Assembly (NCBI RefSeq): GCF_013488225.1
Contig: NZ_CP041238.1
Coordinates: 1,265,501-1,329,500, forward strand
Length of the DNA: 64,000 bases
Source: Sinorhizobium mexicanum
GTDB lineage: Bacteria; Pseudomonadota; Alphaproteobacteria; Rhizobiales; Rhizobiaceae
Direction of reading: 5' to 3'
Shown: piece by piece, positions 51,331 to 56,342 of the stretch
How positions within the stretch are numbered: the stretch's first letter is position 1
Layout: each line of letters starts with the position of its first letter
Notes under the pieces: model-generated
The model's input: the letters and a program-made list of their open reading frames with translations, nothing else
What the model was told of the DNA's origin: nothing
Databases searched by the model: none
Position numbers and translations under genes: made by a program

Positions 51331-51646
51331 GCCGCGCCTTTTGCCCGGACTTTTCCGGGAAGGCAAGGGGTGCAACGGTGTCACCCGGGCGATCGCACGG
51401 TGGGAGGCCGGTTGCGCTTTTCAAGGGGCGATTGTTATCGAATCATGGACAACGTGTTCTGATAATCAATACTTCCAAACATCATCATGAGGGCCCACAT
51501 GTAATCGTGGAAGGGCGCTCCCAAGCTCCTCCGACTTACCGGATCAGATCGAATGCTATCGGCAAGGCCACCGCATTCGAAGGAAACGTTCCGGCCAATC
51601 TTTACGAAATCGTCGTTAAAGCAACGACCGCTCAGGAGAGATGATT
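51331..51646. other. 316-base divergent region before the small exported protein
   Basis: An open frame at 51378-51644 runs through it but has no ribosome site or family features and is probably spurious. The region should contain the promoters of the ABC-F gene and of the small exported protein. No clear hexamer pair was found. AGGAGAG at 51634-51640 is the ribosome site of the next gene. Confidence 0.5.
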
Positions 51647-51934
51647 ATGAAAAATGCAATCCATACTGCGCTTGCTGCAGCCCTGGTTGCCACTGCCGTT
51701 CTCGGCGGCGCATCGGCCGCTTTTGCCGGTGGCAGCTACTACGAAGGCGTCAGCGACAAGCCGCTTTTCACAGACCGTGCACCCAAGGCGCGTGAGGCTT
51801 CGGGCGATGCTGTCCGTGGCGGCCGTAACGGCTCTCTCGACCGCACGTCCACCGGCTCGGTATCGAGCTACGGCTCGACGCCTGCCTACGTTTCGGGCGG
51901 CGACGGTGAATACTATCAGGGCATTAGCCGCTAA
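51647..51934 (+). CDS. Small exported protein, GGSYYEG family, copy A
   Basis: A 95-residue protein with a clear signal peptide (KNAIHTALAAALVATAVLGG..., predicted cleavage after AAFA). The mature part starts GGSYYEGVSDKPLFTDRA and is rich in Gly, Ser, Thr and Tyr, ending with a second motif DGEYYQGI. ATG codons lie at 51641 and 51647. The second has AGGAGAG at proper distance. I do not recognise a named family. Probably periplasmic or surface located. Confidence 0.78.
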   Translation: MKNAIHTALAAALVATAVLGGASAAFAGGSYYEGVSDKPLFTDRAPKAREASGDAVRGGRNGSLDRTSTGSVSSYGSTPAYVSGGDGEYYQGISR

Positions 51935-51987: not shown

Positions 51988-52260
51988 ATTTCAGCCCTTC
52001 TCGTTGCCGCCGCTGTGACTGGCGCCGCCTCCACGGCAAGCGCCGGCGGCAGCTACTACGAAGGTGTAAGCCAGAAGCCCCTTTTCACGGGTCGCGCGGC
52101 GGCCTCGGCCGGTGCCGGCGTTTCAGCGAGCACCGCCGACAATGGTGATTTTTATGCCGGTGTCGACAACAAGTCCGTCGATGCGGCATCGACCGGTGCG
52201 ATTGCCAGCGGCCGCGCAGCGGTGAACGTCTCCAGCGACGACGACCAGAGCGCCCGTTAA
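51988..52260 (+). pseudogene. GGSYYEG-family copy B, apparently 5'-truncated
   Basis: The frame encodes ISALLVAAAVTGAASTASA, which looks like the core and cleavage region of a signal peptide, then GGSYYEGVSQKPLFTGRA. That stretch differs from copy A at only two of its 18 positions. The rest diverges but keeps an NGDFYAGV motif. No in-frame ATG exists; the first standard start is GTG at 52015, which would remove half the signal, and ATT at 51988 is a rare start. No ribosome site is seen. It is either a decayed duplicate or affected by a small deletion. A terminator follows. Confidence 0.6.
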
Positions 52261-52365: not shown

Positions 52366-53442
52366 TCAGGCGGCATCCGGTACATAGGCCTTGCCGCTCG
52401 TCCTTTCGATGTCTGACGAATAGACCCGAATGCCGCCATGCGCCCGCGCCGTGGTCAATGCAAGTTCGGCCCGGCCCAGCAGCTCAGCCGCGCTTGTTGC
52501 TGCCGCGGCCAGCGCAATCCCGGCGGAAAGGGAGAGTGTTTCGCTTGTGAAAGCACGGCCGGGCGGTGTGATTGCCAGCTCTGCGACACTTTGATGGACG
52601 CGCCGCGCAATGGCCTCGGCGTTTTCCGCAGTGACGTCGTTGCAGACGAAAGCGAACTCCTGTGGCCCGACCCGCGCAACGAAGTCATTCTTCTTGATCG
52701 TCTTGCGGAAGATTGTGGCGAGATCGCTCAGTACCTTCTGCGCCAGCGCGCCGCCATGTTGTTCGCCAAGGTCTCGCAATCCTTCAACCGTTGCCACGAC
52801 AAGCGCCACGGATTGACCGGATGGCTGATCGAACACGGCCGCAAGCCTTTTCGAAAGGGCCGCCTGGTTCGGCAGGCCGGTCAACCGATCCCGGGTCAGG
52901 GCCATGCGGCTTTCGTCGAGATCGCCTTCCAACTCGCCTAAACGCTGAGAATGCATCTCTATCGCTGCGCGAAGCGTGGTTTCTTCATTCATCAGCAGCC
53001 CTGCCGCGTCGCGCAACTGTGCCGCTTCATCGGCGAATTCAGACATGGTCGTGACCGGATCGGAGGCGAGTCGAGCCGCGAACCGCTTCAGCTGACCGTT
53101 GAAGGCATGCTTTCGCGCCAACGTGTCGCCGAGCATCGTCGCTAGCTCGCCGAGTGCCTGCTTCGCCTCCGCGCGTGCGCGGTCCGCCGCCACCGCGCTA
53201 TGGCCGATGATCTTGTGCTTGATGCCAAGCTCGTCCAGCGCTTCCTGTGTCGGCTCCGGGCCAAGGGCGGCGAGATCGCGCGACAATTGCGGCATCTGAC
53301 CGGAAAGCGCTTCATAAATCAGCTCATAATTGCGGGGGAGGGCAGCGACGCCTAACCGCATCATCGAATGCGCCAGTTTTTGGATGATCGCGGCATTTCG
53401 TGCCTGCGATCGGCCGCGCGGCGTTGGAGGATGCTGGGTCAT
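52366..53442 (-). CDS. GGDEF-domain protein with degenerate active site
   Basis: A 358-residue soluble protein. Residues 1-170 are helical with no recognised sensor. The GGDEF domain (about 185-350) keeps the DRLTGLPN opening, but the signature reads GPQEF (259-263) instead of GG(D/E)EF, and the inhibitory RxxD is KxxD (250-253). Diguanylate cyclase activity is therefore doubtful; c-di-GMP or GTP binding as a receptor is possible. The ATG at 53442 (MTQHPPTPRG) is chosen over an extension to 53541. It is divergent from the adenylation fusion. Confidence 0.83.
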   Translation of the reverse strand: MTQHPPTPRGRSQARNAAIIQKLAHSMMRLGVAALPRNYELIYEALSGQMPQLSRDLAALGPEPTQEALDELGIKHKIIGHSAVAADRARAEAKQALGELATMLGDTLARKHAFNGQLKRFAARLASDPVTTMSEFADEAAQLRDAAGLLMNEETTLRAAIEMHSQRLGELEGDLDESRMALTRDRLTGLPNQAALSKRLAAVFDQPSGQSVALVVATVEGLRDLGEQHGGALAQKVLSDLATIFRKTIKKNDFVARVGPQEFAFVCNDVTAENAEAIARRVHQSVAELAITPPGRAFTSETLSLSAGIALAAAATSAAELLGRAELALTTARAHGGIRVYSSDIERTSGKAYVPDAA

Positions 53443-53685
53443 GGCGGTGCCTTTGATACCGGTGTCGAACTCGCCTCGCACTATGTCCGGCGCGAATTTA
53501 AGAGATCCTGAAAATAGCCGAGTAACGGAGGTAAAATGCACGATATGGTTGCTGAATCATGATCGGTTGCGGCGAGGCCGTCGGTGCTGCTGTTTGCCGC
53601 ACCGATTGTCACAGAAGTTGTCGCTTTTGCCGTCGCCTAATACTTGACTGCTAAAGTCAGCAATTATATGCCGCCTCGCTGAAAT

Positions 53686-53691
53686 AGGAGG
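53686..53691 (+). promoter_or_regulatory. Ribosome site that fixes a TTG start
   Basis: A perfect AGGAGG five bases before TTG at 53697. No ATG or GTG in frame lies at a suitable distance, so this site decides the start of the adenylation fusion gene. Confidence 0.8.
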
Positions 53692-53696
53692 CGGTC

Positions 53697-56342
53697 TTGA
53701 GCGCAGGTGATTTGTCGAAATTCCCCTTTTTCGCTGCGAACCTGGCTGCGCGGGAAGACCGGCCGGCGTTGCTGCTGCCTGGAAGGCGGACCGTGGGCTA
53801 TCGCGAACTGGCCGAGCGCGTCGATCGCCAAGCATCGCATTGGCGCGGTGAGCGCGGGCTGGTGATGCTGGAGGCTGATCTCTCGGAACACGCCATCATC
53901 GCCTACCTCGCGGCACTCAAAGCCGGACATGCGATTGCCATCCAGGGCCCCGGTGCTCCGGATCGAGAATTTCTGGAGCCTGAGTTTTGCTATCGCCGCT
54001 GTGACGGCCGATGGCGGACGGAACGCCTGGCGGGAAGCAAGTCGCAGCTTCATCCGGATCTTGCGGTCCTGCTCTCGACTTCCGGCAGCACCGGGCACGG
54101 CAAATGCGTGAGGCTTTCTGCCGCCAACATTCAATCAAATGCGCGTTCGATCGCCGATTATCTCGGCCTCGCCGCATCGGATCGAAGCTGCCTTATCCTG
54201 CCGTTCCACTATTCCTACGGCCTTTCCGTGCTGAACGCCCACTTGTCAGTCGGCGCAAGCCTATACGTTCCGGGCCTCTCCATCCTGGACGACGGTTTCC
54301 TCGATGGACTTGTCGAAAGCGGCAGCACCAATCTTTCAGGCGTCCCCTATTCTTACGAACTTCTGGAAAAAGTGGGCTTCCGGGAGCGGGAATTTCCTGA
54401 CCTGCGCTTCATGACCGTCGCCGGAGGACGCTTGGCGCCCGAGCGGGTCCGTCTCTACAACGAACACCTCACCGCGCGTGGCGCTTCGTTGTTCGTGATG
54501 TACGGCCAGACGGAAGCGACTGCCCGCATGGCCTATGTTCCCCCCGACCGCCTGAGGGGCCGGGAAGACCGGATCGGCATCGCCATACCCGGCGGGAGCC
54601 TGAGCATCGAGAATGACGAACGCCAACTGGTCACCGGCACGGATATGCCCGGCGAACTCGTCTATCGGGGGCCGAACGTGATGATGGGCTATGCTTCTAC
54701 GCGTGGCGATCTCGCGCGCGGAAGCGAGCTTTCCGAATTGTGCACCGGCGATCTGGCGACGAGGGACGCCGAAGGCTTCTTCCGCATCGTTGGTCGGACG
54801 AAGCGCATATCGAAGATCGCCGGCCTGCGGATCGCCCACGATAGTCTGGAAGTAATGCTCGAGCGTCGGGGCGTTACGGCCGCCGTCGTCGGGGACGATA
54901 GCTGCATACATGCCTTCTATGTCGGCCCGTACGATCGCGACGATATCCGCGGCATGCTGGCTGCCGCGAGTGGGTTGACGCTTTTGCAGGTGAAGGCTTC
55001 GCGCGTCGATGCGCTGCCGCGGCTTGCCTCCGGCAAGATCGATTACGAGGCTCTCCGCAAGGCGACGAAAAATATCGGCTCCGTCGCGCACGAGGACGGT
55101 ATCGAGGCGCTTTTCAACCAGGTCTTCTGCCCGAAAAGGGTGCGGTCCGACGACAGCTTCCTGTCGCTTGGCGGTGACTCGCTGCGTTTCGTCCAGCTTT
55201 CGATCGGCCTGGAGAAGCTTCTTGGCGATGTACCCGAGGCCTGGGAAGGGATGTCGGTCGCCGAACTCGCGGCGATGGGACGGCGCGAAACCAAAAGCAG
55301 GCGGATCGGCACGGACCTGCTCATCCGGGCATTGGCGATCCTGCTCGTCGTCCTCCATCACGAGACCCTGTGGCCCATCCCCGGCGGATCTGCGGCGATG
55401 GTCATCCTAGCGGGCTTCGGCCTCGCGCGGTTCCAGCGTGGCGTGTTGCTGTCTGGCGCTGTCTTGCGGCTGTTGCGGCCGCTTACGCAGATTCTCGTTC
55501 CGTACTATCTGATCATCGCAGCCTACGCCCTTGCCTGGGGAAAGGTGCCCTGGGCGTCGGTGTTCCTCGTTGGCAATTTCGGTTTTGCCGATCCCGAACG
55601 CCACAGCATGGTTCCTTACCTCTACTGGTTCATCGAGGCGTATTGCCAGATGCTCCTCGTGTTCGTGGCGTTGTTCGCGGTGCCGTCGGTGCGGCGCGCG
55701 GCTGCCTCGAGACCCTTGGCGCTTGGAATGTCGTTGCTCGCGGCAGCTCTTCTTGCCCGCCTGGCATTGCCGCTGGTCGTCGAGATGGGCAACCGTCAGA
55801 TTTTCACGCTGCCGTGGATTTTCTATCTGGCGGTCATCGGCTGGTGCGCTGCGCTTGCCACAACTCCGCTTGAGCGCGGCATGCTGATGCTGGCCGGAAC
55901 GGCCATCTTCCTGTTCTTCGGGCTCTATGAAGGCGTGTGGATCGGGACGAAGATCAAGTATCTGTTGCAGATCGCGGTCCTGGCCGCCCTGCTGTTCCTT
56001 CCGCAAGTCAGGATGCCGCAATGGGGAGTGAGGCTTGTCCTGCCCATCTCGGCTGCCGGCTTTCATATCTATATTCTGCATCGTTTCGCGCCGGAATTCC
56101 TGCTGCAGCCGGTGCAGCCGTTGGTGTCGCCGACCGTCTATTCGCTGTGCTCCATAGCCGGCGGAATAGCGCTGGGAATGGTGGTCTGGTCCGGCCAACG
56201 CCGCCTCATCAAGCTGTGGGCGCAGCTCACGGACGGCGGCAGTCTGGGCGATTGGCAGAACCGGCTCGCCGGGCAGCTTCCCTCAGTCCGCCCATTTCTC
56301 GCCATCGGTCCGCAGGAAGAAAACCAGGTCCAGCGTCAATGA
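53697..56342 (+). CDS. Adenylation / carrier / membrane acyltransferase fusion
   Basis: An 881-residue protein. Residues 1-450 form an AMP-binding domain: TSGSTGHGK (128-136), YGQTEAT (269-275), CTGDL (349-353), GRTKRISKIAGLRI (366-379) and SGKID with Lys447. Residues about 465-530 are a carrier domain with Ser495 in LGGDSLRF. From about 540 the chain has some ten hydrophobic helices; the first carries IRALAILLVVLHH (543-555), the Arg...His signature of acyltransferase-3 proteins. It may activate a small acid, tether it, and pass it to a membrane or periplasmic acceptor. Substrate and acceptor are unknown. No condensation or thioesterase domain is present. The last 60 bases overlap dinB antisense. 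Confidence 0.8.
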   Translation: MSAGDLSKFPFFAANLAAREDRPALLLPGRRTVGYRELAERVDRQASHWRGERGLVMLEADLSEHAIIAYLAALKAGHAIAIQGPGAPDREFLEPEFCYRRCDGRWRTERLAGSKSQLHPDLAVLLSTSGSTGHGKCVRLSAANIQSNARSIADYLGLAASDRSCLILPFHYSYGLSVLNAHLSVGASLYVPGLSILDDGFLDGLVESGSTNLSGVPYSYELLEKVGFREREFPDLRFMTVAGGRLAPERVRLYNEHLTARGASLFVMYGQTEATARMAYVPPDRLRGREDRIGIAIPGGSLSIENDERQLVTGTDMPGELVYRGPNVMMGYASTRGDLARGSELSELCTGDLATRDAEGFFRIVGRTKRISKIAGLRIAHDSLEVMLERRGVTAAVVGDDSCIHAFYVGPYDRDDIRGMLAAASGLTLLQVKASRVDALPRLASGKIDYEALRKATKNIGSVAHEDGIEALFNQVFCPKRVRSDDSFLSLGGDSLRFVQLSIGLEKLLGDVPEAWEGMSVAELAAMGRRETKSRRIGTDLLIRALAILLVVLHHETLWPIPGGSAAMVILAGFGLARFQRGVLLSGAVLRLLRPLTQILVPYYLIIAAYALAWGKVPWASVFLVGNFGFADPERHSMVPYLYWFIEAYCQMLLVFVALFAVPSVRRAAASRPLALGMSLLAAALLARLALPLVVEMGNRQIFTLPWIFYLAVIGWCAALATTPLERGMLMLAGTAIFLFFGLYEGVWIGTKIKYLLQIAVLAALLFLPQVRMPQWGVRLVLPISAAGFHIYILHRFAPEFLLQPVQPLVSPTVYSLCSIAGGIALGMVVWSGQRRLIKLWAQLTDGGSLGDWQNRLAGQLPSVRPFLAIGPQEENQVQRQ

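Follow-up and report, generated by a model that had tools for sequence, protein, structure and literature searches.

Why would a bacterium place acid activation, a carrier and a membrane acyltransferase on a single polypeptide, and what would the product be used for? The question is raised by a gene in the window, as we call the whole analysed stretch of 64,000 nucleotides of Sinorhizobium mexicanum DNA, for which a sequence-only reading had suggested direct delivery of an activated acid to an envelope acceptor. In the literature, which was covered in part, no published description or assigned function was found for a fusion of an adenylation (A) domain, a carrier and an acyltransferase-3 (AT3) domain. 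As shown below for the features of Table 1, the domain logic of the earlier reading stands, whereas it had overlooked iron-type operators and a ferric transporter, which make iron acquisition a likelier purpose than general envelope decoration. The iron regulation predicted from these upstream sequences is the firmest new point of the analysis.

Table 1. Features of the fusion gene, its surroundings and related loci (coordinates refer to the window unless another locus is given).
Feature	Position	Strand	Basis or remark
Two tandem genes for small, probably secreted proteins	51641-51934, 52015-52260	+	both with GGSYYEGVS...KPLFT repeats
GGDEF gene	52366..53541	-	divergent from the fusion gene, common intergenic region
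TTGAC -35-like element	53644-53648	+	overlaps the TGA-N9-TCA palindrome
TGACTGCTAAAGTCA, TGA-N9-TCA palindrome of RirA IRO-box type	53645..53659	+	position, conservation, published box definition
Ribosome-binding site AGGAGG	53686..53691	+	5 nt upstream of the TTG start; from sequence
CDS, 881 aa, adenylation - carrier - AT3-like membrane domain	53697..56342	+	Sinorhizobium/Ensifer
Adenylation domain, about residues 11-460	53727..55076	+	Pfam, conservation, structure
Lys447 codon, adenylation domain	55035-55037	+	
Carrier domain, about residues 463-531	55083..55289	+	Pfam (sub-threshold); Ser495 conservation
GGDS Ser495 codon, carrier	55179-55181	+	
AT3-like/TmAT-fold membrane domain, about residues 532-859	55290..56273	+	fold and conserved motif
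R544 codon	55326-55328	+	
H555 codon	55359-55361	+	
Siderophore-type ABC operon with near-identical operator	L141 1478-6618 = own genome C4:1857477-1862617		
A-carrier gene followed by separate AT3 gene	L180 7295-10271		8-base overlap, different frames
A-carrier-GDSL/SGNH fusion followed by MBOAT gene	L109 7977-12047, L110 7989-12138		Photobacterium, Massilia
MFS_3 exporter gene	L052 10658-11950	-	convergent with the Marinobacterium homologue

The presence of activation, carrier and AT3-type membrane domain on one chain was confirmed by Pfam, fold and conserved residues. In the alignments, which left out the frameshifted or cut homologues L054, L059, L061, L085 and L078, the carrier Ser495 is kept in 65/65 relatives. 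The AT3 signature R-X10-H (defined as R/K-X10-H in excerpts of PMC7448272) is formed by R544 and H555 in transmembrane helix 1, which are kept in 63/65 and 64/65 relatives, respectively, so that the sequence-only reading, which had staked its assignment on this catalytic pair, holds in this respect. The window protein scores 8.1 bits against PF01757 (cut-off 31) and its C-terminal domain alone gives no match; 54/65 relatives match the model at E <= 0.01. An HGSNAT/GWT1-like, TmAT-type fold with about ten helices was found for the membrane domain, so that the lack of any acyltransferase fold, the other refuting result named by the sequence-only reading, did not occur. A profile of the C-terminal alignment gave no significant match to the AT3 protein of L067, compared as a single sequence (probability 2%). 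For the RXXR motif after helix 2 the window protein shows RLLR at residues 591-594, residue 594 being Arg in 36/65 and Lys in 7/65 relatives.

With AT3 proteins such as OafA/OafB the fusion shares the R/K-X10-H motif in helix 1, about ten helices, a GG after helix 1 and the TmAT-type fold; it differs in the partly kept RXXR, in a PF01757 score far under the cut-off and in its proposed acyl donor, which would be the fused carrier and not CoA, the donors of this family being usually taken as CoA esters. Aas (PRK08633, PRK06814), which the A domain matches in NCBIfam far below cut-off, also fuses activation to acyl transfer, but has no AT3-like domain; its acyltransferase belongs to a different family and its carrier is a separate ACP. 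Epsilon-poly-L-lysine synthetase (Pls) likewise has an A domain, a carrier and membrane helices on a single chain; unlike the fusion it polymerises an amino acid and contains condensation-like domains, three in tandem. In the window protein Pfam revealed neither a condensation domain nor an MBOAT, nor a PlsC (glycerophosphate-acyltransferase-type) domain among the matches up to E 10, and NRPS or IucA/IucC-type synthetase domains were absent from the fusion protein and the five neighbouring window genes scanned. No outer-membrane receptor gene and no siderophore gene lies beside the fusion gene, and the earlier statement that a dedicated biosynthesis cluster is absent from the locus proved correct.

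Over the A4 region an NRPS A domain and that of the fusion can be aligned gap-free. Using the numbering of the NRPS pocket positions as we assume it, with Asp235 as the amino-acid-binding residue, the equivalent position is Ser173 in the window protein and is occupied by Ser in 30/65 and by Cys in 35/65 relatives, and Arg277 in the pocket region is invariant (65/65). Because of these two positions the pocket argues for a non-amino-acid substrate, presumably a small acid carrying an additional polar group, and against an alpha-amino acid. The fusion thereby differs from an NRPS module, having neither a condensation domain nor the amino-acid Asp235. Passages of PMC3765264 on Pse clusters, consulted as a clue to the acid, describe no such ligase.

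The full-length fusion was present in 33/33 Sinorhizobium/Ensifer genomes searched, the window's own included, as a single, non-redundant gene in the sampled genomes of the genus. In other genera of the family, none of the 27 genomes searched gave more than an A-domain match, and a longer match (residues 11-842) was obtained for one of 40 genomes from other families of the order (G069). A scan of genome contigs confirmed at least 544 relatives, and the best 80 of these, retained for comparison, include rhizobia, roseobacters, Oceanospirillales and many actinobacteria, the spread being patchy outside the genus. In a tree of 58 A-carrier regions 29 actinobacterial rows lie on one side of a branch (100/99), rhizobial and roseobacter rows form another group, and L055, L056, L067, L109 and L110 constitute a third clade (99/86).

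Upstream of the rhizobial gene lies a palindrome of the TGA-N9-TCA form, by which the RirA IRO box is defined in passages of PMC6386902 and PMC8822346. In 33 aligned genus-level sequences (28 distinct), anchored on TTGAC and therefore invariant in this arm by construction, the downstream GTCA arm is invariant as well (33/33) and six of the inter-arm bases are only 45-64% conserved; L039, a genus-level relative outside this set, lacks the second arm. The box was found within 100 bp upstream of the start in 10/13 other Rhizobiales loci (L042, L049 and L085 have no TGA-N9-TCA box) compared with 9/152 other genes of the same loci, and in L034 and L038, for which no divergent GGDEF gene was called, it is still found with the fusion gene. 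The genome of the window contains one rirA (289.8 bits against a curated cut-off of 193), so that both marks of a RirA regulon member, an operator of this form at the promoter and the regulator gene in the genome, were observed for the window gene.

The TTGACN7GTCA pattern by itself is weak evidence, because the genome holds 68 matches compared with 24 for the reversed control; the argument is its conservation and company. The window contains four matches where 0.37 would be expected, and three of the four lie within neighbouring genes. No promoter was called at the palindrome region by a promoter scan, and an over-strict operator pattern, matching 8/33 genomes without the window's own among them, was set aside. 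One of the 68 matches, the 16-mer TTGACTGATAAAGTCA, is one base off the window's operator and is located about 43 bp upstream of a siderophore-type ABC operon encoding two binding proteins, a FecCD-type permease and an ATPase, with best names of the ferrichrome/ferrioxamine type, at scores below cut-offs. Directly downstream of this operon and on the same strand an Rrf2-family regulator gene was noticed, which reaches 36.5 bits against the RirA model, below the cut-off.

For Sinorhizobium meliloti, excerpts of PMC2848241 report SMc00592, a 'hypothetical, transmembrane protein', among 36 genes changed in both swarming comparisons, 17 of which were counted as iron genes; with values of +1.47 at 14 h and +1.30 at 7 h it is similar to hmu, fhu and exb genes, and it rose together with hmu, fhu, exb and rhb genes. 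Judged by gene numbering and order SMc00592 is probably the orthologue of the fusion gene, because in L034 and L038 the third gene past the fusion is ndk, which in S. meliloti carries the number SMc00595 (PMC2912261). For S. fredii, ten RirA ChIP-seq peaks are named, distributed over seven regions; no fusion orthologue is mentioned in the text of the section concerned.

A second, unrelated type of iron operator was encountered in the actinobacteria, represented by 43 loci among the best 80 of at least 544, L067, L079, L085, L097, L109 and L110 having been dropped as non-actinobacterial. Scanning with a 19-base DmdR/IdeR consensus, which we take to be the accepted one, revealed a box of at least 15/19 between -300 and +20 of the start in 28/43 loci, compared with 5/1893 control windows of 320 bp. 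Eight more loci carry such a box at the beginning of the transporter operon, between -3.4 and -4.3 kb, resulting in a total of 36/43, the operon-start search window of 900 bp being wider than the 320-bp control windows. No box of at least 15/19 was found in 7/43 loci (L064, L072, L089, L094, L104, L106, L107), of which L072, L094 and L106 sit on short contigs and L089 and L107 show weaker sites at about -3.7 kb (14/19 and 13/19). In six Streptomyces loci (L090, L091, L092, L100, L102, L103) two iron boxes each, at about -28 and at -167 to -198, are placed between the fusion gene and a divergent ferric-binding protein gene.

An FbpABC-type binding protein and permease were detected by tblastn within about 8 kb (fetched flanks) of the fusion gene in 28/43 actinobacterial loci, and the same transporter family occurs at Rhizobium giardinii L041 and Mesorhizobium L048, giving 30/80 loci altogether. 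The count was taken from tblastn because the simple gene caller had missed the homologue in L048, L072, L083, L099, L104 and L110, where antisense frames won. The L089 binding protein hits a solved ferric iron-binding protein (1.9e-128), then YfuA and SfuA; from NCBIfam, in contrast, it received only sub-threshold 2-aminoethylphosphonate and thiamine names. FbpABC/SfuABC ferric transporters, which share no homology with the fusion, are thus its genetic partner in actinobacteria and at two rhizobial loci. The protein of the window's genome that best corresponds to the L041 binding protein (55% identity) is encoded divergently beside rirA, an fbpA-rirA arrangement that is mentioned in a passage of PMC6386902.

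Sixteen proteobacterial loci, scanned upstream with Fur, Irr (ICE) and DmdR consensus sequences as we presume them to be, gave nothing convincing, the best sites being a Fur match of 12/19 in L050 (1.2% of windows reach that) and one of 13/19 over the start codon of L052. Since no convincing iron box turned up in the loci of Roseobacter, Oceanospirillales and the third clade, iron use is, as far as these upstream regions tell, a feature of two clades and not of the whole family. Possible exporters were observed as an MFS_3 gene at L052 (Table 1) and as MFS_1 genes adjoining the L041 and L042 homologues.

With slightly better than even confidence we propose that the fusion is an iron-starvation-induced acyl activation and transfer enzyme, which makes an extracytoplasmic ferric ligand. 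According to its pocket the A domain would activate a small carboxylic acid other than an alpha-amino acid, which, following the domain logic, would be loaded on Ser495 of the carrier. The AT3-type domain would take the acid from the carrier, as other AT3 proteins do from acyl-CoA, and in view of the HGSNAT-like fold and the R-X10-H motif would pass it to an acceptor outside the inner membrane. Ample iron would repress the gene via the putative operators, through RirA in rhizobia and a DmdR/IdeR-type regulator in actinobacteria, and the product, soluble or anchored, would act as an extracytoplasmic ferric ligand with the FbpABC-type transporter, as regulation and neighbourhood suggest. Iron acquisition is regarded as well mapped, yet this fusion is common to all genomes sampled from a model symbiont genus and occurs in many actinobacteria, with operators of unrelated iron regulators. 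A more tentative extension, less likely than not, is a third siderophore route besides NRPS and NIS, in which a single membrane-anchored A-carrier-AT3 enzyme would build the ferric ligand outside the inner membrane, with assembly and export in one step, and feed FbpABC, in rhizobia and in actinobacteria, each with its own, unrelated iron repressor. A ferric ligand made outside the cytoplasm would represent a new enzymatic logic for siderophores.

The A domain also exists in split and sister forms. Stand-alone A domains with the pocket signature of the fusion occur in 11/398 Pseudomonadota genomes. Twelve such loci (L168-L179) were fetched, their A domains being 37-43% identical to that of the fusion, and a short gene of carrier size lies near most of them. 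Profiles for three (L168, L170, L172) identified a PP-binding protein (L170), LuxE-like (all three) and LuxC-like proteins (L170, L172), a FabG-like reductase (L170), PseB, PseC and PseG (L168) and, just under cut-off, PseH- or NeuD-like sugar acyltransferases (L168, L170). The stand-alone A domain was thus seen in or near nonulosonic-acid clusters with LuxE/LuxC-like genes; these share the pocket signature, but have a separate ACP and soluble sugar N-acyltransferases and no fused membrane acyltransferase. At L180 the A-carrier gene precedes a separate AT3 gene, which could reflect a frameshifted fusion or genes that are naturally separate. In L109 and L110, beside which alone MBOAT genes were seen, activation, carrier and SGNH are found in one chain, closely mirroring the Dlt set. 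The pocket residues are common to the fused, split and glycan-linked forms. Every form would pass an activated acid to an acyltransferase, the split forms doing so for glycans; by analogy the fused form probably uses its own AT3 domain.

These relatives bear on the main rival explanation, according to which the fusion performs an iron-regulated acylation of envelope or exopolysaccharide, for surface remodelling or iron sparing under iron stress and not for iron uptake itself; it amounts to the sequence-only reading with control by iron added. The AT3, MBOAT-SGNH and nonulosonate relatives with their common pocket residues all point to glycan acylation, as do the third-clade neighbourhoods with rml genes (L055) or a glycosyltransferase and a second AT3 gene (L067). 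We nevertheless consider this explanation less likely, as it leaves unexplained the pairing with the ferric transporter at 28/43 actinobacterial and two rhizobial loci, sometimes in one operon. If envelope decoration were correct instead, surface chemistry would be linked to iron status.

The nearest structures to the A domain found by Foldseek are oxalyl-CoA synthetases. Oxalate is not favoured as the acid, as the presumed oxalate-binding residues His214, Ser289 and His319 of these enzymes align with Tyr172, Gly243 and Ala276. This structural likeness, the single gene without other biosynthetic genes and an adjoining transporter family that binds ferric ion and not a large siderophore would fit an acid exporter, whose AT3-like domain would bring the carrier-bound acid to the outside or release it there (with water or a hydroxy acid as acceptor) and thereby secrete a simple iron-chelating carboxylate. 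ATP activation would, however, be a costly way of exporting a free acid, and AT3 proteins are described in excerpts of PMC7448272 as acyltransferases with defined acceptors, which renders this alternative improbable. Dlt-like aminoacylation of an envelope polymer, for example with D-alanine, appears highly improbable, for although the division of labour is the same and structural matches of the A domain include DltA, an amino-acid substrate was rejected because of Ser/Cys at the Asp235 equivalent in 65/65 together with the invariant Arg277, and the window protein has no MBOAT.

Compared with DltA, DltC, DltB and DltD, which likewise arrange activation, carrier and membrane acyltransfer in series, the fusion is one polypeptide with an AT3-like domain instead of an MBOAT, an A domain of non-amino-acid type and iron-type operators; it joins the acyl-activation logic of the Dlt type to the AT3 family. 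Of the two tandem small genes that precede the GGDEF gene in the window, the first gave no Pfam match; copies of these GGSYYEGVS...KPLFT genes, often two, were observed in 9 loci including the window.
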